NCBI GenBank assembly: GCA_015272215.1
Contig: JACYMD010000008.1
Location: forward strand, 1 to 34,184
Length of the DNA stretch: 34,184 nucleotides
Direction: 5' to 3'
Origin: Rivularia sp. T60_A2020_040
GTDB lineage: Bacteria; Cyanobacteriota; Cyanobacteriia; Cyanobacteriales; Nostocaceae
Position numbers and translations under genes: made by a program
Notes under the pieces: model-generated
Told to the model about the DNA's origin: nothing
Database searches by the model: none
Seen by the model: the letters and a program-made list of their open reading frames with translations, nothing else
Shown here: positions 12,242 to 33,856 of the stretch, one piece after another
How the letters are laid out: every line of letters starts with the position of its first letter
Position numbering within the stretch: position 1 is the first letter of the stretch

Positions 12242-14749
12242 ATGTCTCTGAACTTCTCTGGTCAAAATTTCATAGGACACTCCTTTAGAGGTCAAAACCT
12301 TGCGGGTGCAAACTTTAGCCATGCAGATATCCAAGGTACAAATTTTACTAATGCTAACTTAAGTGATGTCAACTTTTGCTATGCCAACTTAAGTGAAGCC
12401 GACCTAAGTGGTGCCGATTTAAGTGATGCCAATCTGAGTGGTGCCGATTTAAGTAATGCCAATCTGAGTGAAACAAAATTGAATGGTGTTTACCTGCGTG
12501 ATGCCAAAATAAACGAGGCAACAAAAATTGATATTAAATGGCGTTTGGTCTGGGAGATTGTTACCAACGGAGCCAAAGGTCGAAACTTAAGTAGTGTCGA
12601 TTTAAGTGATGTAGACCTAAGTCTTGTAAACCTTAGTTATGCAGACCTGAAAGATGCTAATTTACAACGCTCCGATTTGTATGGTGCAGATTTATATAAT
12701 ACCGACTTAAGTAATGCAAACCTAAGTGATGCCGACTTAAGTAGTGCCGAATTGGGTCGTACCAAGCTGAAAAGTTCCAACTTAAATAACGCTGATTTGT
12801 ATAATGCTAACTTAATTCATGCGAACTTAAGTGAAGCCGACCTGAGTGGCGCGGATTTTACTAATGCTCGTCTATACTACAATAATCTATGTGATGCCAA
12901 AATTAACGAAGCAACAAAAATTGATATTAAATGGCGTTTGGTCTGGGAGATTGTTACTAATGGAGCCGACGGTTTAAATTTAAGTGGTGTTGACCTGAGT
13001 GATGCAAACCTAAGTGGTGTTGACCTGAGTAATGCTAATCTAAGTAGTGCCAACCTTTTGGGTGCTGATTTAAGTGAAGCCAATCTGAGTGGTGCCAACC
13101 TTTTGGATGCCGATTTAAGTGAAGCCAATCTGAGTGGTGCCAATCTGAGTGGTGCCAACCTTTTGGATGCCGATTTAGGTGAAGCCAATCTGAGTGGTGC
13201 CAATCTGAGCGGTGTCAATCTGAGCGGTTTCAGTCTTTCGTGTGTCGAAATTAACGAAGCAACAAAAATTGATTGTAAATGGCGTTTTATCTGGGAAATT
13301 GCTAATCACGGAGCCGAAGGTCGAAACTTAAGTGGTACCGACTTGAGTGGTACCAACTTGAGTGGTATCGACCTGATTAGTAGCAACTTAAGTTGTGCTG
13401 ACCTGATGGATACAGATTTAAGTGAAGCCGATTTAAGTGATGCCGACTTAAGTGATGCCGACCTGAGTTATGCCGACCTGAGTTATGCCGACTTAAGTGA
13501 TGCTGATTTAAGTGGTGCTAACCTGATGGATACAGATTTAAGTGAAGCCGATTTAAGTGGTGCTAACCTTAAAGGTGCCAAAATTAACGAGTCAACAAGG
13601 ATTGATAGTAAATGGCGTTTGGTCTGGGAGATTGTTACCAATGGAGCCAAAGGTCGAAACTTGAGTGATGCCGACCTGAGTGATGCCGATTTAAGTGATG
13701 CCGACCTGAGTGATGCCGATTTAAGTGATGCCGACTTAAATGATGCCGATTTAAGTGATGCCGACTTAAGTGGTGCCGACTTAAGTGATGCCGACCTGAG
13801 TGGTGCCGACCTGAGTGGTGTTAACCTTAAAGGTGCCAAAATTAGCAAGACAACAAAAATTGATAGTAAATGGCGTTTGGCTTGGGAAATTGTTAGTAAT
13901 GGAGCTAAAGGTCGAAACTTGATTAATACTGACTTAAGTAATATTGACTTGAGCGATGCCGACTTGAGTGGTGCCAACCTTAAAGGTGCTAACCTTAAAG
14001 GTGCCAAAATTAGCAAGACAACAAAAATTGATAGTAAATGGCTTTTGGTTTGGGAGATTGTCAACAATGGAGCCATAGGTCGAAACTTGATTAATACCGA
14101 CTTAAGTGATGCCGACCTGAGTGGTGCTGACTTATGTAGTGCTGACCTATATAATACTGACCTAAGTGATGCAGACCTGAGTGGTGCCGATTTACGTAAT
14201 GCTGACCTAATTGATGCCGAACTGAGTGGTGCAGACCTGAGTGGTTCTGACCTGAGTGGTGCCGACCTACGCAATGCTAACTTAATTCATGCCAATCTGA
14301 TTAATGCTAACCTAATTGATGCCAACCTACGTAATGTCAATTTAATTGATGCTAACTTGAGTGGTGCTAACCTTAAAGGTGCCAAAATTAGCAAGACAAC
14401 AAAAATTGATAGTAAATGGTTTTTGGTTTGGGAGATTGTTACTCAAGGAGCCGAAGGTCGAAATCTAAATGGTGTGGATTTGAGTGGTGCGGACTTGCGT
14501 GATGCCAATTTAAGTGGTGCGGACTTGAGTGATATCAACCTGAGTAATGCCGACTTAAAATATGCAAACCTGAGTAATGCCAACCTAAGTGATGCAGACC
14601 TGGGTGGTGCGGATTTGAGTTATTCCAATTTAAGTGGTGTGGACTTGAGTGGTGCGGACTTGAGTGATGCCAATTTAAGTGGTGTGGACTTGAGTGATAT
14701 CAACCTGAGTAATGCCGACTTAAAATATGCAAACCTGAAGTTAAATTAG
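12242..14749 (+). CDS. Large pentapeptide-repeat protein with seven repeated linkers
   Basis: 835 residues almost wholly of A(D/N)LSx pentapeptides, predicted to form long right-handed quadrilateral beta-helices. The helix is interrupted seven times, roughly every 80-125 residues, by a near-identical segment: AKINEATKID.KWRLVWEIV.NGA.GRNLS (first at about residue 90, last near 715). Later copies change INEATKID to ISKTTKID, so the gene grew by amplification of a linker-plus-helix module. The N-terminus (FSGQNFIGHSFRGQNLAGANF) matches the usual start of such cyanobacterial proteins. No signal peptide or membrane helix is seen, so probably cytoplasmic. Function unknown; DNA-mimic or scaffold roles are known for other pentapeptide proteins but cannot be claimed here. 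Long antisense frames are by-products of the repeats. Confidence 0.93.
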   Translation: MSLNFSGQNFIGHSFRGQNLAGANFSHADIQGTNFTNANLSDVNFCYANLSEADLSGADLSDANLSGADLSNANLSETKLNGVYLRDAKINEATKIDIKWRLVWEIVTNGAKGRNLSSVDLSDVDLSLVNLSYADLKDANLQRSDLYGADLYNTDLSNANLSDADLSSAELGRTKLKSSNLNNADLYNANLIHANLSEADLSGADFTNARLYYNNLCDAKINEATKIDIKWRLVWEIVTNGADGLNLSGVDLSDANLSGVDLSNANLSSANLLGADLSEANLSGANLLDADLSEANLSGANLSGANLLDADLGEANLSGANLSGVNLSGFSLSCVEINEATKIDCKWRFIWEIANHGAEGRNLSGTDLSGTNLSGIDLISSNLSCADLMDTDLSEADLSDADLSDADLSYADLSYADLSDADLSGANLMDTDLSEADLSGANLKGAKINESTRIDSKWRLVWEIVTNGAKGRNLSDADLSDADLSDADLSDADLSDADLNDADLSDADLSGADLSDADLSGADLSGVNLKGAKISKTTKIDSKWRLAWEIVSNGAKGRNLINTDLSNIDLSDADLSGANLKGANLKGAKISKTTKIDSKWLLVWEIVNNGAIGRNLINTDLSDADLSGADLCSADLYNTDLSDADLSGADLRNADLIDAELSGADLSGSDLSGADLRNANLIHANLINANLIDANLRNVNLIDANLSGANLKGAKISKTTKIDSKWFLVWEIVTQGAEGRNLNGVDLSGADLRDANLSGADLSDINLSNADLKYANLSNANLSDADLGGADLSYSNLSGVDLSGADLSDANLSGVDLSDINLSNADLKYANLKLN

Positions 14750-15148: not shown

Positions 15149-15901
15149 ATGACCAAAATCATCGCAATTTTTAACCAGGCGGGAGGTGTAGCTAAAACCA
15201 CCCTAACCCAAAACCTGGGCTACCACCTGGCACTCCGCAAACACAACGTCCTGCTCATAGACATGGACCCACAAGGCTCCTTAACCATTTTTATGGGCTT
15301 AGTTCCCAGAGAATTGGAGAAATCCATGTATGATGCCATAGTCGAAGAACAACCCTTGCCAATATATGAGGGGATTCACGGCATGGACTTAGCGCCCACT
15401 AACACCACCCTTAGTACGGCGGAAATGCAGTTAGTCAATGCCGATTTGCGCGACTTTCGCCTCAAATACGCCATTGAACCAATTCAAGAAGATTACGACT
15501 TCATCTTGATAGATTGTCCTCCCAGCTTAGGGCTGCTAAGTTACGTTTCTCTCGTCGCAGCAACTCACGTTCTCGTACCCATAGAAACCCACTTCAAAGC
15601 CTTTGAAGGCACAAACGAACTCCTTAAAACCGTTGCCAGAGTTCGCACTAGAGTCAACCGTTCTTTAGAAATAGGCGGATTTGTTCCCACTAAATACGAT
15701 GCCCGTAACTCCCAGGACACCCGCACCTTGGGAGCCATCCAAGAACAACTTGCCGGAGTCGGAAAAGTCCTTCCTCCCATTTCTCGTTCTACCACCTTTG
15801 TTGATGCCACAGAAGAAAGAATGCCCTTAGCCGTATATCAGCCAAAGCATCCAGCTATTGCCATACTTGAACAAATAGCCATTCATATGGAGTCATTATG
15901 A
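15149..15901 (+). CDS. parA: ParA family partition ATPase
   Basis: Walker-type ATPase that moves plasmid copies over the nucleoid with ParB and its centromere. The deviant Walker A is FNQAGGVAKTT (residues 8-18; the signature lysine before GG is replaced by alanine, the catalytic K-T-T is intact), A' motif LLIDMDPQGSLT (about 35-46), Walker B FILIDCPPSLGLL (about 116-128). At 250 residues it is the short type without an N-terminal DNA-binding domain (type Ib-like length, ParA/Soj-like sequence). It overlaps parB by four bases (ATGA), so they are co-translated. The 400-bp region upstream has repeats that may control it. Confidence 0.95.
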   Translation: MTKIIAIFNQAGGVAKTTLTQNLGYHLALRKHNVLLIDMDPQGSLTIFMGLVPRELEKSMYDAIVEEQPLPIYEGIHGMDLAPTNTTLSTAEMQLVNADLRDFRLKYAIEPIQEDYDFILIDCPPSLGLLSYVSLVAATHVLVPIETHFKAFEGTNELLKTVARVRTRVNRSLEIGGFVPTKYDARNSQDTRTLGAIQEQLAGVGKVLPPISRSTTFVDATEERMPLAVYQPKHPAIAILEQIAIHMESL

Positions 15902-17151
15902 ACCGCAAACGCAGCCAACCACTTAAAAGTCAAATTGACATCCCTTGGGACACCACAAACGTTTCAGCTACCGACAAAGCCGATTCCACTCAGAATGTAC
16001 CATTAAAACAAATTCATATAGCGCCAACTCAACCCCGCCGCTACTTTGACCCCAAAGCGCTTTCAGAATTAGCCGAATCCATCAAACAACACGGCATCTT
16101 GCAACCCCTATTGGTGCGTCCTAGAGCTAAAACTGGATACGAATTGGTAGCAGGAGAGCGACGCTACCGTGCCGCCAAAGAATGCGGATTAAAAGATGTA
16201 CCCGTCGTTATCCGCGAATTAAGTAACGAAGCAGCCTTCCAACTAGCATTAATTGAGAACCTGCAACGAGAAGACCTCAACCCCGTAGAAGAAACAGAAG
16301 GCATTTTACACCTACTGGCTATCAGATTAGGTAGAGCGGTTGAAGAAATTCCTCCCTTGCTACGCCGCTTACAACATGAACGTAAAGAAGCTGCTAAATC
16401 TGACAATAACGCTATTGTCACAGAAGAGCCTTCTCTTGAAGAATCTTCCAATAACGTTATTGTCAAAAACAAAGATGATAATTTAGACGCAGATAATAAC
16501 GTTACTGAGGAACAGGAAATAGACTCCAAAGAATCCTCCAATAACGTTATTGTCAAAAAAGAAACTGATAATTTAGACGCTGCCGATGATGTTATTCTCA
16601 AAGACGATTCGGATAAATTAGATGATGAAAATAGCGTTATTGGGGAACAGGAATTAGACCTAGATAATTCTTCCAATAACGTTATTGGAAAAGATGAATC
16701 GGATAAAAACGAGTCATCCAATCAAGAAAAGCCAGAGTTAAAAATTGTTGAAGTTGTGTTTAACGGCTTGGGTTTAATGACCTGGGAATCATTTGCTAAC
16801 AACCGCTTGCCCTTGCTAAATCTTCCAGAAGACATTTTAGAAGCATTAAGAAAAGGCTCCCTTGAATACACCAAAGCCAGAGCCATTGCTCAAATTAAAG
16901 ATACTTCTGAGCGCGTTGCTTTCTTAAACCAAGCTATTAAAGAAAATTGGTCTTTAAGCGAAATCAAACAACGCATTAGTGATAATAAAACCCCAAATTC
17001 TAAGACAGAAACTGAATCTGATAATTACAAAGAGCGCTTTGCTACTGCGACTACCAAACTAAAAAGGTCGCGTATTTGGTCAAACCCCAAGAAACGCAAG
17101 CAGGTAGAAAAACTGCTCTCACAACTGGAAGCGCTGACGCAGGAAGGTTGA
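15898..17151 (+). CDS. parB: ParB family partition protein with a repetitive acidic insert
   Basis: Centromere-binding partner of ParA. The N-terminal ParB/sulfiredoxin-like domain (about 35-125) has IHIAPTQPRRYF, LAESIKQHGILQPLLVRP and GERRYRAAKE (the CTP-binding GERRYRA box). A helix-turn-helix-type region follows, split into two parts: LNPVEETEGILHLLAIRLG before, and VFNGLGLMTWESFANNRLPLLNLPEDI...YTKARAIAQIKD after, an insert of about 110 residues. The insert (about 166-277) is seven 15-residue repeats, most with S(S/D)NNVIV and acidic residues. At DNA level each repeat carries a palindrome (see 16401-16690). GGAG lies seven bases before the ATG. A normal relative would have only a short linker here. 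Confidence 0.95.
   Translation: MNRKRSQPLKSQIDIPWDTTNVSATDKADSTQNVPLKQIHIAPTQPRRYFDPKALSELAESIKQHGILQPLLVRPRAKTGYELVAGERRYRAAKECGLKDVPVVIRELSNEAAFQLALIENLQREDLNPVEETEGILHLLAIRLGRAVEEIPPLLRRLQHERKEAAKSDNNAIVTEEPSLEESSNNVIVKNKDDNLDADNNVTEEQEIDSKESSNNVIVKKETDNLDAADDVILKDDSDKLDDENSVIGEQELDLDNSSNNVIGKDESDKNESSNQEKPELKIVEVVFNGLGLMTWESFANNRLPLLNLPEDILEALRKGSLEYTKARAIAQIKDTSERVAFLNQAIKENWSLSEIKQRISDNKTPNSKTETESDNYKERFATATTKLKRSRIWSNPKKRKQVEKLLSQLEALTQEG
16401..16690. repeat. Seven palindromes at 45-bp spacing inside parB (candidate parS array)
   Basis: Palindromes with core AATAACGTTATT are centred at 16410.5, 16455.5, 16500.5, 16545.5, 16590.5, 16635.5 and 16680.5, exactly 45 bp apart. The last is a perfect 20-bp palindrome, TTCCAATAACGTTATTGGAA (16671-16690). 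The first, TGACAATAACGCTATTGTCA (16401-16420), has one mismatched pair. Sites 2 and 4 hold the perfect 14-bp core CAATAACGTTATTG; sites 3, 5 and 6 are degenerate. Because 45 is divisible by three, the array codes for a 15-residue repeat. Plasmid centromeres are commonly arrays of ParB sites next to parAB, so this is a strong candidate. Confidence 0.85.
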
Positions 17152-17268: not shown

Positions 17269-17535
17269 ATGAATATTCAACTCAAGCCCGAAGACGAGCA
17301 ATTTATAAGGGCGCAAATTGCTAGAGGTAAATATGAAAATCCGGAAGAAGTTATTAGTAAAGCATTGAAATTATTAGACGAGTCGGAAAAAGGCTATCAA
17401 AAATGGGTTGAAGAAACTCGTCAAAAAGTAGAAGTCGCTGTTGAACAATTGGAAAGAGGTGAAGGCATTGATGGGGAAGTTGTAGTTGAACGACTGCGGG
17501 AGAAGCTACGTAAAGCCAGAGAGAATCAATCATGA
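17269..17535 (+). CDS. parD: ParD-like antitoxin
   Basis: 88-residue antitoxin of the ribbon-helix-helix ParD type. The N-terminal MNIQLKPEDEQFIRAQIARGKYENPEEVISKAL matches the family pattern (beta strand, helix, G-[KR]-[YF]-xNxxEVI). The charged C-terminus (about 50-88) would wrap the toxin. It overlaps the toxin gene by four bases (ATGA), the usual arrangement. The antitoxin-toxin complex normally represses its own promoter, but no operator is obvious in the AT-rich 60 bp upstream. With parAB it secures plasmid maintenance. Confidence 0.85.
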   Translation: MNIQLKPEDEQFIRAQIARGKYENPEEVISKALKLLDESEKGYQKWVEETRQKVEVAVEQLERGEGIDGEVVVERLREKLRKARENQS

Positions 17536-17837
17536 AACAACATATTATCTCCCCAGAGGCAAATAAGGATTTGTCAGAAATTATTGATTATTTTACCAGT
17601 CGTAATATTGACGCTGGGGAGCGTTTTATTGATGAGTTTAATAAAAAATGTAGATATCTTGCTAATTTTCCTAACATGGGACGTAGTTATTCAGATATTA
17701 AGGATTATTTGCGGGGTATATCTTTAGAAGGTTACATTATTTTTTATCGAGTTACGGATAGTGGAATTGAAATTTTACGTGTAGTTAGCGGTTATAGAGA
17801 TTATCCGTCTTTATTCGCAGATTCGGGTGATGATTAA
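17532..17837 (+). CDS. parE: ParE/RelE-superfamily toxin
   Basis: 101-residue toxin of the ParE/RelE fold. Recognisable pieces are SPEANKDLSEIIDYF at the start, GERFIDEFNKKCRYLANFPNMGR in the middle, LRGISLEGYIIFYRV and the final ILRVVSGYRDYPSLF, which match the family's beta-sheet core. ParE toxins inhibit DNA gyrase while RelE toxins cut mRNA; the lack of the RelE catalytic lysine/arginine set and pairing with ParD favour ParE. Complete, with no disruption seen. Confidence 0.87.
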   Translation: MKQHIISPEANKDLSEIIDYFTSRNIDAGERFIDEFNKKCRYLANFPNMGRSYSDIKDYLRGISLEGYIIFYRVTDSGIEILRVVSGYRDYPSLFADSGDD

Positions 17838-32496: not shown

Positions 32497-32569
32497 CAGG
32501 AGTGGTAGGACTTGAACCTACATAAAACCGTTTAGAAGACGGTTGCCTCATCCGTTAGGCTACACTCCT
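32497..32569 (-). tRNA. tRNA-Arg(UCU)
   Basis: 7-bp acceptor AGGAGTG/CACTCCT, discriminator G, anticodon stem ACCGT/ACGGT with loop CTTCTAA (UCU), T arm GTAGG-TTCAAGT-CCTAC. A standard cloverleaf. Confidence 0.88.
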
Positions 32570-32578
32570 ATAAATTGG

Positions 32579-32650
32579 TAGTCCCGATTGTTTTGAACCT
32601 GCGACATCCTGCTTGTAAGGAAGGCGCTCTACCAACTGAGCTACGGGACT
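32579..32650 (-). tRNA. tRNA-Val(UAC) with broken T stem
   Basis: Acceptor AGTCCCG/CGGGACT is perfect, discriminator A, and CCA is encoded (32576-32578). Anticodon loop CTTACAA (UAC), with one mismatch in its stem. The 3' strand of the T stem is missing: GCAGG is followed by TTCAAAACAAT instead of a complementary CCTGC. Probably non-functional. Confidence 0.65.
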
Positions 32651-32655
32651 ATGAA

Positions 32656-32727
32656 AGCGATTGACGAGATTTGAACTCGTGCCGAGAGGTTGGAAGCCTC
32701 ATAAGAAGACCGTTACACCACAATCGC
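32656..32727 (-). tRNA. tRNA-Gly(UCC)
   Basis: Acceptor GCGATTG/CAATCGC, loop CTTCCAA (UCC) on a GAGG/CCTC stem, T arm ACGAG-TTCAAAT-CTCGT. The outermost anticodon-stem pair is a T-T mismatch; otherwise regular. Confidence 0.85.
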
Positions 32728-32732
32728 ATTAA

Positions 32733-32805
32733 AGCTGGTGACAGGAGTTGAACCTGCAACAAAGCCGATTACAAATCAGTTGCTCTGCCGTTGAGCCACA
32801 CCAGC
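32733..32805 (-). tRNA. tRNA-Thr(UGU)
   Basis: Acceptor GCTGGTG/CACCAGC, loop TTTGTAA (UGU), T arm GCAGG-TTCAACT-CCTGT. The anticodon stem ACTGA/TCGGC has one wobble and one mismatch. Confidence 0.85.
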
Positions 32806-32835
32806 ACTTTTACGGTGACAGTTTTGTCGCCGCAA

Positions 32836-32909
32836 TACCCCTGACAGGACTTGAACCTGTAGAAAACCCGTTTTAAGCGGGTCATGTCTTCCAATTGCAT
32901 CACAGGGGC
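32836..32909 (-). tRNA. tRNA with Leu(UAA) anticodon, class I body
   Basis: Stem ACCCG/CGGGT, loop CTTAAAA (UAA). Acceptor GCCCCTG/CAGGGGT with a G-U at 1:72, discriminator A. The variable region is only TTTCT, whereas bacterial Leu tRNAs have a long variable arm. Confidence 0.8.
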
Positions 32910-32918
32910 TTGATTTGA

Positions 32919-32990
32919 TGGGCGCTACAGGAGTTGAACCTGTGTCAACCTGATTAAAAGTCAGGAGCATAACCGTTCTGCCAAACGCCC
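32919..32990 (-). tRNA. tRNA-Lys(UUU)
   Basis: Acceptor GGGCGTT/AGCGCCC, anticodon stem CCTGA/TCAGG with loop CTTTTAA (UUU), T arm ACAGG-TTCAACT-CCTGT, discriminator A. Regular. Confidence 0.9.
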
Positions 32991-32995
32991 ACAAG

Positions 32996-33069
32996 TCCGA
33001 GTGGCAGGATTTGAACCTGCGACCCTCTGTTCCCAAAACAGATGCGCTGCCAAACTGCGCTACACCCGG
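32996..33069 (-). tRNA. tRNA-Pro(UGG)
   Basis: Acceptor CCGGGTG/CACTCGG, D arm GCGCAGTTTGGCAGCGC, anticodon stem TCTGT/ACAGA with loop TTTGGGA (UGG), T arm GCAGG-TTCAAAT-CCTGC. Regular. Confidence 0.92.
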
Positions 33070-33073
33070 ATAA

Positions 33074-33174
33074 TACTGCTGGTGGGAGTCGTTCGCGTTA
33101 GCGTCTCCCGAAGGGAGAACCCCACAACCTCTGGTTTCTAAGACCAGCGCCTCTTCCAGTTGGGCTACAGCAGC
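33074..33174 (-). tRNA. tRNA with Leu(UAG) anticodon, repeat inserted in T loop
   Basis: Acceptor GCTGCTG/CAGCAGT, stem CTGGT/ACCAG with loop CTTAGAA (UAG), short variable region AGGTT. The T stem GTGGG/CCCAC is intact, but its loop holds about 30 extra bases (33091-33120), a GTTCGCG...GAGAAC palindromic repeat. Gene length is 101 instead of about 74. Confidence 0.8.
33091..33120 (+). repeat. Dispersed repeat in the tRNA-Leu(UAG) T loop
   Basis: Starts GTTCGCGTTAGCGTCTCCCG and ends AAGGGAGAAC; the ends GTTC/GAAC are complementary and CTCCC-GAA-GGGAG folds inside. The same element is at 33358-33386 in tRNA-Asn. Confidence 0.85.
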
Positions 33175-33181
33175 ATACTAA

Positions 33182-33256
33182 TACTCCCGGTGGGAGTTGA
33201 ACCCACACATAAACTGTTTTTGAGACAGTCGCCTCTTCCAATTGGGCTACAGGAGT
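33182..33256 (-). tRNA. tRNA with Leu(CAA) anticodon, class I body
   Basis: Acceptor ACTCCTG/CGGGAGT, stem ACTGT/ACAGT with loop CTCAAAA (CAA), T arm GTGGG-TTCAACT-CCCAC. The variable region is 5-6 bases. The D arm GCCCAATTGGAAGAGGC is nearly the same as in tRNA-Leu(UAG). Confidence 0.8.
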
Positions 33257-33261
33257 ATAGA

Positions 33262-33336
33262 CTGGGAAGGAGGGAATCGAACCCCCAAAACTTCGCATTC
33301 AAAGTGCGACGGCTTTGCCTATTTGCCTACTTCCCA
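33262..33336 (-). tRNA. tRNA-Gln(UUG)
   Basis: Acceptor TGGGAAG/CTTCCCA with discriminator G as usual for Gln, stem TCGCA/TGCGA with loop CTTTGAA (UUG), T arm GGGGG-TTCGATT-CCCTC with one mismatch. Confidence 0.88.
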
Positions 33337-33340
33337 ACAA

Positions 33341-33440
<100 letters not shown>

Positions 33441-33447
33441 ATGAAAG

Positions 33448-33521
33448 CCCCCCAGGTCAGAATCGAACTGACTACCTCCTGTGCTTCAAACAGGCGCTAC
33501 TACCAATTGAGCTACCGGGGG
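33448..33521 (-). tRNA. tRNA-Phe(GAA)
   Basis: Acceptor CCCCCGG/CTGGGGG, stem CCTGT/ACAGG with loop TTGAAGC (GAA), T arm GTCAG-TTCGATT-CTGAC. The discriminator is G where Phe normally has A. Confidence 0.82.
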
Positions 33522-33529
33522 ATAAAAGA

Positions 33530-33599
33530 GGAAAGATGGATATTATCAAACGAACTGGTTCAATTCAGCATCTCAAGCCAGTCATTCCAGCATCTTTCC
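33530..33599 (-). pseudogene. Possible tRNA relic
   Basis: GGAAAGATG (33591-33599 on the minus strand) pairs with CATCTTTCC (33530-33538), spaced like an acceptor stem, 70 bases in all. Inside, CTG-AATTGAAC-CAG could be an anticodon arm, but there is no proper T arm. It fills a tRNA-sized gap in the array. Confidence 0.3.
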
Positions 33600-33606
33600 C
33601 ATGCAA

Positions 33607-33681
33607 CGAGAACGGAAGGACTTGAACCTTCACCATAGCCGATTCGTAGTCTGAGATGTTATCCAGTTACACCACGTTCTC
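33607..33681 (-). tRNA. tRNA-Arg(ACG)
   Basis: Acceptor GAGAACG/CGTTCTC, discriminator G, loop CTACGAA (ACG) on an imperfect stem TCAGA/TCGGC, T arm GAAGG-TTCAAGT-CCTTC. The anticodon stem is weak. Confidence 0.75.
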
Positions 33682-33684
33682 AGG

Positions 33685-33770
33685 CGGAGAGAGAGGGAGT
33701 TGAACCCACAGTGAACTTACATCCACGACTGCGACGGCAAACAGCTTGCTCTGCCAATAGCGACCTCTCC
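33685..33770 (-). tRNA. tRNA with class II variable arm, isotype uncertain
   Basis: 86 bases. Acceptor GGAGAGG/TCTCTCC, D arm GCTATTGGCAGAGC, variable arm GTGGA-TGTAAG-TTCAC, T arm GTGGG-TTCAACT-CCCTC with one mismatch. The anticodon arm is irregular: GCTG/CAGT closes a 10-nt loop TTTGCCGTCG. If GCC is the anticodon it would read Gly, which does not fit a class II body. Confidence 0.6.
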
Positions 33771-33776
33771 ATATAA

Positions 33777-33856
33777 TGGGTCGAGCTGGAATTGAACCAG
33801 CAACCAAAACGGACTGTTTTACAGACAGCTGCCCACACCAATAGGCGAGCCGACCC
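33777..33856 (-). tRNA. tRNA-Tyr(GUA)
   Basis: Acceptor GGGTCGG/TCGACCC, stem CTGT/ACAG with loop CTGTAAA (GUA), medium variable region TCCGTTTTGGTT, T arm GCTGG-TTCAATT-CCAGC, discriminator A. Confidence 0.88.

Follow-up and report, generated by a model that had tools for sequence, protein, structure and literature searches.

The palindromes within the parB gene of this DNA were interpreted as parS sites for the ParB protein of that same gene, a reading to which a probability of about 0.9 was given from sequence comparison. The putative sites are placed within the part of the gene that encodes a flexible linker, just 5' of the recognition-helix codons, and the array probably arose here by in-frame duplication. 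Palindromes occupied the same place and frame in related ParB genes, carried marks of selection at the DNA level, recurred outside parB on some replicons, and changed together with one residue of the recognition helix.

The parAB operon and its array

The window (the whole stretch of 34,184 nucleotides that was analysed) contains adjoining parA and parB genes, with the following features:

15149–15901, plus strand: parA, Walker-type ATPase of 250 aa (Pfam AAA_31, E = 6.6e-49; CbiA)
15898–17151, plus strand: parB, 417 aa, overlapping the end of parA by 4 bp (Pfam ParB_N at residues 32–123, E = 4.9e-34; HTH_ParB at 299–364, E = 2.4e-11)
16411–16722, plus strand: expanded, array-bearing ParB linker, residues 172–275, predicted to be disordered (pLDDT below 50)
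16402–16419, no strand: site 1, GACAATAACGCTATTGTC, 8/9 pairs
16447–16464, no strand: site 2, TCCAATAACGTTATTGTC, 7/9 pairs
16492–16509, no strand: site 3, decayed, GATAATAACGTTACTGAG, 5/9 pairs
16537–16554, no strand: site 4, TCCAATAACGTTATTGTC, 7/9 pairs
16582–16599, no strand: site 5, decayed, GCCGATGATGTTATTCTC, 4/9 pairs
16627–16644, no strand: site 6, decayed, GAAAATAGCGTTATTGGG, 5/9 pairs
16672–16689, no strand: site 7, TCCAATAACGTTATTGGA, perfect 18-bp palindrome
16783–16821, plus strand: recognition helix of the ParB helix-turn-helix, residues 296–308 (WESFANNRLPLLN), helical in the model; the segment of a relative aligned with the helix-turn-helix of solved Spo0J, ParB and Noc
16801–16803, plus strand: codon of N302, the residue predicting half-site base 4; it aligns with the conserved Asn of canonical ParB

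The operon had the make-up of a type I ParABS system, with a Walker-type ParA adjoining a ParB that has an N-terminal ParB/CTPase domain and a helix-turn-helix domain. A GERR motif was also present in the window ParB, which we take to be the motif tied to CTP binding and hydrolysis (a predicted activity). In the predicted structure (mean pLDDT 69.8) the N-terminal ParB domain was followed by a helical segment, the disordered linker at 172–275 and the helix-turn-helix; the linker was in frame and acidic. The initial annotation had the repeat splitting the DNA-binding region of ParB at a linker; ParB_N and HTH_ParB were confirmed on either side, with helices flanking the low-pLDDT segment. Foldseek matched the model best to structures of ParB, Noc and Spo0J (lowest E 1.3e-12); their TM-scores were low because much of the model is disordered.

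The 45-bp grid was confirmed, with seven units in parB centred from 16410.5 to 16680.5. There were 10 matches to AATAACGTTATT in the window at up to two mismatches, against 2.98 expected and a maximum of 8 in 100 shuffles. Six were in parB, at 16405, 16450, 16495, 16540, 16630 and 16675, all on the grid, and the remaining unit, with its core at 16585–16596 (GATGATGTTATT), was likewise on the grid and decayed. The initial description of a 12-bp core understated the palindrome; counts of Watson-Crick pairs gave 18 bp, formed by the halves TCCAATAAC and GTTATTGGA. Units 1 to 7 kept 8, 7, 5, 7, 4, 5 and 9 of the 9 pairs, such that units 1, 2, 4 and 7 retained at least seven and unit 7 alone was perfect, while units 3, 5 and 6 were decayed. 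The exact spacing first reported is therefore real, but it links four good sites and three relics rather than seven equal palindromes. Mean pairwise identity among the units was 0.86 in the central 12 bp and 0.72 in the 18 bp, against 0.43 and 0.57 in the flanks, which agrees with the drift of flanking bases originally described. At half-site base 4, all seven units had T with A opposite, as the Asn of the window ParB predicts.

The array had also been called phased. This holds for the reading frame, with 15 codons to the unit, but not for the DNA helix; helical phasing was rejected by arithmetic, 45 bp being approximately 4.3 turns. An Rfam scan at gathering thresholds returned no match at the array, and an RNA hairpin was disfavoured because a perfect palindrome without a spacer leaves no loop, and because copies also occurred outside the gene. 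No good copy was present outside parB in the window, where the one match within 5 mismatches of the 18-mer was not palindromic (5/9 pairs); therefore, the array stands alone there. The perfect unit, TCCAATAACGTTATTGGA, did not conform to the canonical chromosomal parS consensus (TGTTNCACGTGAAACA), sharing only the central ACGT.

Several other features of the window were recorded. A ParD/ParE-type toxin-antitoxin pair lies directly 3' of parB (17269–17837, plus strand), and toxin-antitoxin genes were found near parAB in several relatives too. An 835-aa pentapeptide-repeat protein (12242–14749, plus strand) has internal repeats of 15, 30, 45, 60, 168 and 258 bp. Thirteen tRNA matches (Rfam) were clustered near one window end (32497–33855, minus strand); dense tRNA arrays are known from some cyanobacterial plasmids and phages. 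Near the start of the window, a group II intron match (RF00029; 790–867, plus strand) follows just behind an ORF (126–776) that, read from its sequence, looks like the maturase/HNH portion of an intron protein, and 8-bp short-period repeats within an ORF (1351–1450) encode GDKETRRQGDKE and GHTDTRTHGHTD stretches.

The linker palindrome in related ParB genes

A tblastn search of plasmids gave 42 records with one place covering at least 80% of ParB. When the linkers of twelve plasmid relatives were read first, three different palindromes were seen at the same place: TCCAATAAC with GTTATTGGA, encoding SNNVIG; ACCCATAAC with GTTATGGGC, encoding THNVMG; and AGGAGAAAC with GTTTCTCCT, encoding RRNVSP. 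Between SNNVIG and THNVMG, mirror-image bases replace two residues at once, Asn by His and Ile by Met. The sample was widened to genome contigs, genomes of the same order and class, and Thermaceae plasmids. Three surveys sampled 388 same-order or same-class genomes each; one of them gave at least 150 places, of which 141 were taken in 140 stretches, and nine Thermaceae records were chosen by hand; among 17 pattern stretches from viral contigs there was no relative. In total, 171 distinct ORFs matched the ParB of a relative; five were set aside and 166, from cyanobacteria and Thermaceae, were analysed, a set in which some genes are related and some entries are the same gene with different boundaries.

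The best linker palindrome was perfect over 16 bp (8/8 pairs) in 136 of the 166 ORFs and had 7/8 pairs in a further 22; in all 158 its centre fell on a codon boundary, and in four of them it was not the central motif. The other eight linkers had no palindrome of at least seven pairs. Among 114 non-redundant genes, 91 had a perfect palindrome, compared with 3.69 expected after synonymous codons were shuffled within each gene, and only 1/614 windows of the same length elsewhere in these genes contained one. In 55 control ParBs from other, mostly Firmicute, loci (60 of 80 genome-contig loci lay outside the clade, and 55 of their ParBs were found by pattern), no 8/8 palindrome was found in the 40 codons before the helix.

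Complementarity was also evident where the site was set by an amino-acid anchor alone, which was possible in 90 of 92 short linkers. Pairs 4–9 of these sites were Watson-Crick in 479/540 cells, against a mean of 229.5 (sd 11.1, largest 276) in 2000 shuffles, and sliding the partner by one base largely removed the effect. Complementarity exceeded expectation out to pair 10 or 11, fading at 12. The covariation is understated by this test, because 7 of 16 weak rows arose from the anchor pattern on an earlier Asn. Wobble bases were similarly constrained, with Asn encoded by AAC 103 times and AAT twice at the palindrome centre (625 and 862 elsewhere) and Val by GTT in 104/106 cases (846/2168 elsewhere), although these counts are partly circular because the sites were picked by their palindrome.

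The central Asn-Val was nearly constant, and elsewhere in the linker site amino acids changed jointly as reverse-complement pairs (N/I, H/M, Q/L, D/V, G/S and R/T). Half-sites vary widely yet symmetrically, and the linker amino acids are thereby slaved to reverse-complement codons. The earlier suggestion that selection acts on the palindrome rather than on the protein is strongly supported by these mirror-image changes, together with the exact outside copies and the link between site and helix residue described below. Where linkers had successive sites, spacings of 45 bp (32 cases) and 81 bp (26 cases) were the commonest.

Two side observations concern the motif itself. The palindrome centre can also change symmetrically, as in L047 and L284 (GCGGACAGC with GCTGTCCGC, and TCCCACGAC with GTCGTGGGA). 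Five members of the same ParB family (L303 and L311–L314) had neither the Asn-Val motif nor an in-frame palindrome of at least seven pairs.

Half-site base 4 and the recognition helix

The identity of half-site base 4 followed a single residue of the recognition helix, x, defined as the third residue after F in F..xRL (N302 in the window ParB). Base 4 was T in 92/92 cases with Asn, C in 20/20 with His, and A in 42/42 with Ser, Thr, Lys, Ala or Val, the classes for Ala, Val and Lys having been set on few cases after the data were seen. This rule fitted all 154 scored ORFs. The 158 site-bearing ORFs included four that went unscored: L253, where the palindrome was due to chance, and three Thermus ORFs with a tied second palindrome, in which the linker palindrome fits the rule.

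A quick tree of the 114 proteins, built without linker and helix and with weak branch support, was used to count independent changes. The test covered 105 of the 114 rows, since the central motif was required, and left out one row combining His with A (the chance palindrome of L253). The site character required at least 24 changes on the tree; as the association was perfect in these 105 non-redundant genes, the residue needs the same 24 changes, and so the pattern does not reduce to a single ancient split. Independent pairs on well-supported branches agreed in 5/5, 3/3 and 5/5 cases, which alone fell short of significance; on all branches there were 19, 9 and 16 pairs, with agreement by construction.

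A hold-out of 40 further loci was taken after the rule had been noted; they are partly close relatives of the first set, and six stand above the place named when the rule was noted. Three were set aside and 37 analysed, of which 30 had a palindrome of at least seven pairs and seven, including motif-less relatives of L303, did not. The rule fitted 28 of the 30. One miss was an out-of-frame chance palindrome in a motif-less clade, while the other (L320, Ser with G) was a true exception. The linker sites combine two properties of parS: a palindrome of approximately 16 bp, and a match to the cognate recognition helix, with L320 as the one real exception.

Aligned by phmmer, a close relative's recognition-helix segment matched those of Spo0J, ParB and Noc, with x on a conserved Asn. 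N302 of the window ParB is presumably equivalent to Caulobacter N178, by our own numbering. N178 is among the parS-contacting residues conserved in ParB and Noc (PMC7383237). Residue x was Asn in all 55 control ParBs. Extending the rule to canonical parS was rejected, being contradicted by L062, a locus outside the clade where x is Asn and the canonical site within the gene has C at base 4; the printed canonical consensus has N at base 4 (PMC4409726). Given that C and the open consensus base, the rule is limited to the ParB clade studied here.

Copies outside parB

The initial annotation had proposed looking for the palindrome elsewhere on cyanobacterial plasmids, especially outside coding DNA, and such copies were found. 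Each locus was scanned for its own 16-mer outside ParB genes, and 43 exact copies were recovered in 32 of 136 loci (1.90 Mb); the other 104 had no exact copy outside parB within the sequence scanned. Palindromes borrowed from other loci gave 2 exact matches in 4120 scans, equivalent to 0.07 expected against the 43 observed. The outside-copy counts are not independent events because related plasmids are in the set. The copies of three annotated plasmids (L003, L009 and L012) lay between annotated genes, that of L284 within a small annotated ORF, and one in L010, where the linker site itself is imperfect, touched a gene end; the plasmid gene table is incomplete. At up to one mismatch there were 46 outside copies: 12 within 250 bp upstream of the parA start, 9 elsewhere and 25 where no parA was found by pattern. 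At least eight of the 12 upstream copies share one palindrome and offset and were attributed to one clade.

Within the genome of the window itself (6.02 Mb, 139 contigs), the 16-mer CCAATAACGTTATTGG occurred four times at up to two mismatches, three of these in the window parB. Therefore, there is no dispersed element in that genome, and the scattering over many unrelated genes by which a mobile palindromic repeat would be recognised, named at the outset as evidence against a partition site, was excluded there.

Some loci were grouped by hand for 20 genomes, of which 16 had at least two readable sites; the sites within a genome all differed in 15 of these 16. The exception was one genome (G111) in which four contigs (L125, L140, L145 and L147) share the palindrome AGGAGAAAC / AGGAGAAACGTTTCTCCT; one of its four parB genes is broken by two stop codons. 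Such sharing is unexpected if the site alone sets incompatibility.

The Thermus megaplasmid

The ParB of the T. thermophilus HB27 megaplasmid is a homologue in the clade (tblastn E = 3e-50 with the ParB of L025). In the published accounts, parBm holds its own site, parSm, assigned to the 14-bp palindrome AAGGACGCGTCCTT (PMC4409726; PMC10085754); the gel shift placed parS on a palindrome of parBm other than the linker one (PMC4409726), and the deletion is reported in later work not to be complementable in trans (PMC10085754). The 14-mer sits near codon 221, outside the linker. It was exact in 3/9 Thermaceae parB genes (L198 and L279–L286), with a single change in one more, while a linker palindrome of at least 7/8 pairs was present in 9/9. 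The HB27 linker palindrome is AGGGACAACGTTGTTCCT (GGGACAACGTTGTTCC as set against AAGGACGCGTCCTT); pTT27 has a single copy each of the inner 16-mer of this palindrome and of the 14-mer.

Two T. thermophilus parB genes were instructive, their parA genes being identical over 965/965 bases compared. The parB pair matched at 699/728 bases outside the segment containing linker site and helix and at 119/160 bases inside it, the segment bounds being taken from the protein alignment. Residue x and the linker palindrome differ between the two, whereas the 14-mer does not. This difference was taken as a natural swap of a cassette and as an argument, short of proof, for specificity being set by the linker site. 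On these sequence comparisons we suspect that the linker palindrome, rather than AAGGACGCGTCCTT, is the candidate specificity site in Thermus, contrary to the published assignment, and suggest that the published parS of the megaplasmid be re-tested.

Alternative explanations

If the repeat were selected as protein, the 15-residue acidic motif (SNNVIG and so on) would space domains, bind ParA or drive clustering, and the palindrome would be incidental. The in-frame, acidic and presumably disordered linker and its near-constant Asn-Val suit such a role, but fixation extends to synonymous positions, linked amino-acid changes follow reverse complementarity, and exact copies exist outside parB, intergenic in L003, L009 and L012, though in a small ORF in L284. 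A protein-only repeat was rejected on these three grounds and is given very little weight. A similarly small chance was allowed that the sites bind another protein, such as a par-operon regulator or a restriction/modification enzyme. The operator-like location of 12/46 outside copies within 250 bp upstream of parA would fit a regulator (at least 8/12 being from one clade), but the site follows the recognition-helix residue of ParB itself, at the position equated with a parS-contacting residue of Caulobacter ParB. The two readings are not mutually exclusive, since ParB itself may be the regulator.

Palindromic elements described in Rickettsia genes are the model for a mobile or proliferating element inserted into genes in frame, and tandem in-frame copies in coding sequence are what such an element would leave. 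The genome scan, with three of only four matches lying in the window parB, eliminated it for that genome, and among relatives the palindrome is not one shared sequence but varies between plasmids along with the ParB helix; this explanation was considered the least credible of all. The one given somewhat more weight, though still unlikely, accepts the ParB sites but sees the window array as a decaying relic, with the working centromere elsewhere on the replicon. Three of seven units are indeed decayed and only unit 7 is perfect; on the other side, that unit is intact, every one of the seven has the T–A pair at base 4 that Asn predicts, and the window has outside parB nothing closer than the non-palindromic match mentioned above. 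The preferred reading is that the palindromes are parS sites of their own ParB; the array would then serve the window plasmid as its centromere.

Proposed working

As parS sites, the palindromes would usually number one per ParB gene in the clade. In the window plasmid and its nearest relatives, the linker may have been lengthened by in-frame duplication of a unit, mostly of 45 bp; duplication of the site unit in frame would therefore yield both an array in the gene and a disordered, acidic 15-residue repeat in the protein. The protein repeat would be mainly a by-product, the translation of duplicated site and spacer, tolerated as a disordered linker. ParB binding, CTP-dependent spreading and ParA-driven movement are known behaviour of the family. 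By analogy, ParB dimers would bind the in-gene sites, load as CTP-dependent clamps and spread, and ParA would move the ParB-DNA complex. Bound inside parB, the protein may damp expression of the operon or hinder parB transcription, while having several sites may increase loading locally or make up for individual poor ones.

A broader proposal, held with less confidence yet judged probable on balance, is that site and reading helix form a lock-and-key cassette within about 100–400 bp of one gene. Because they are close together in one gene, a single recombination or duplication would carry both. The site would dictate the linker amino acids, specificities would stay matched while diversifying, new incompatibility groups would arise by segment swap, and the centromere could be amplified as a protein repeat. 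If the in-gene parS reading is true, a cyanobacterial plasmid centromere would be predictable from the parB gene itself, and a one-residue, one-base code would predict part of the site. The linker would also clearly exemplify coding sequence in which a DNA site sets the amino acids, and would offer a route to study the evolution of protein-DNA specificity and of incompatibility groups without a mismatched intermediate.

Comparison with known partition systems

The initial annotation held that partition sites normally lie beside parB and not inside it. This generalisation has exceptions, since in-gene cases are published for B. subtilis parS-359 (PMC4442127) and Thermus parSm (PMC4409726; PMC10085754). 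The first of these is a ParB site within the parB (spo0J) coding sequence (PMC4442127), and resembles the present case in that respect. A canonical parS was also found within the gene in 4/55 control ParB ORFs, three of them located, at codon positions 6, 221 and 244. These and parS-359 differ from the linker sites in being canonical sites at varying codon positions, with no array found; no co-evolution of site and helix was seen in the control set because x is Asn in all 55. The Thermus parABSm system is a homologue in the clade with a site in parBm, but the published parSm (AAGGACGCGTCCTT) is near codon 221 and the palindrome here is in the linker.

Canonical ParB-parS and Noc-NBS share with the linker sites a 16-bp palindrome read by a helix-turn-helix dimer, in which x aligns with a conserved Asn. 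In published work the residues that switch specificity are 173, 179, 184 and 201 (PMC7383237). The natural switch here is instead at the position equated with 178, which is conserved according to the same paper (PMC7383237). A further difference is that Asn does not fix base 4 in canonical ParB-parS, as L062 demonstrates. Iteron-like centromeres, as in F and pSM19035, consist of several regularly spaced sites in non-coding DNA beside the genes. The array has the regular spacing of several partition sites in common with them, but it lies in codons of the binding protein.

In the literature covered, which excluded most subscription journals, no description was found of parS sites on cyanobacterial plasmids, of an in-gene site at one set position throughout a ParB clade, or of co-evolution of such a site with the helix. 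The fixed in-gene position, the co-evolution of site and reader, and the arrays appear to be new, while parS inside parB as such was already known.
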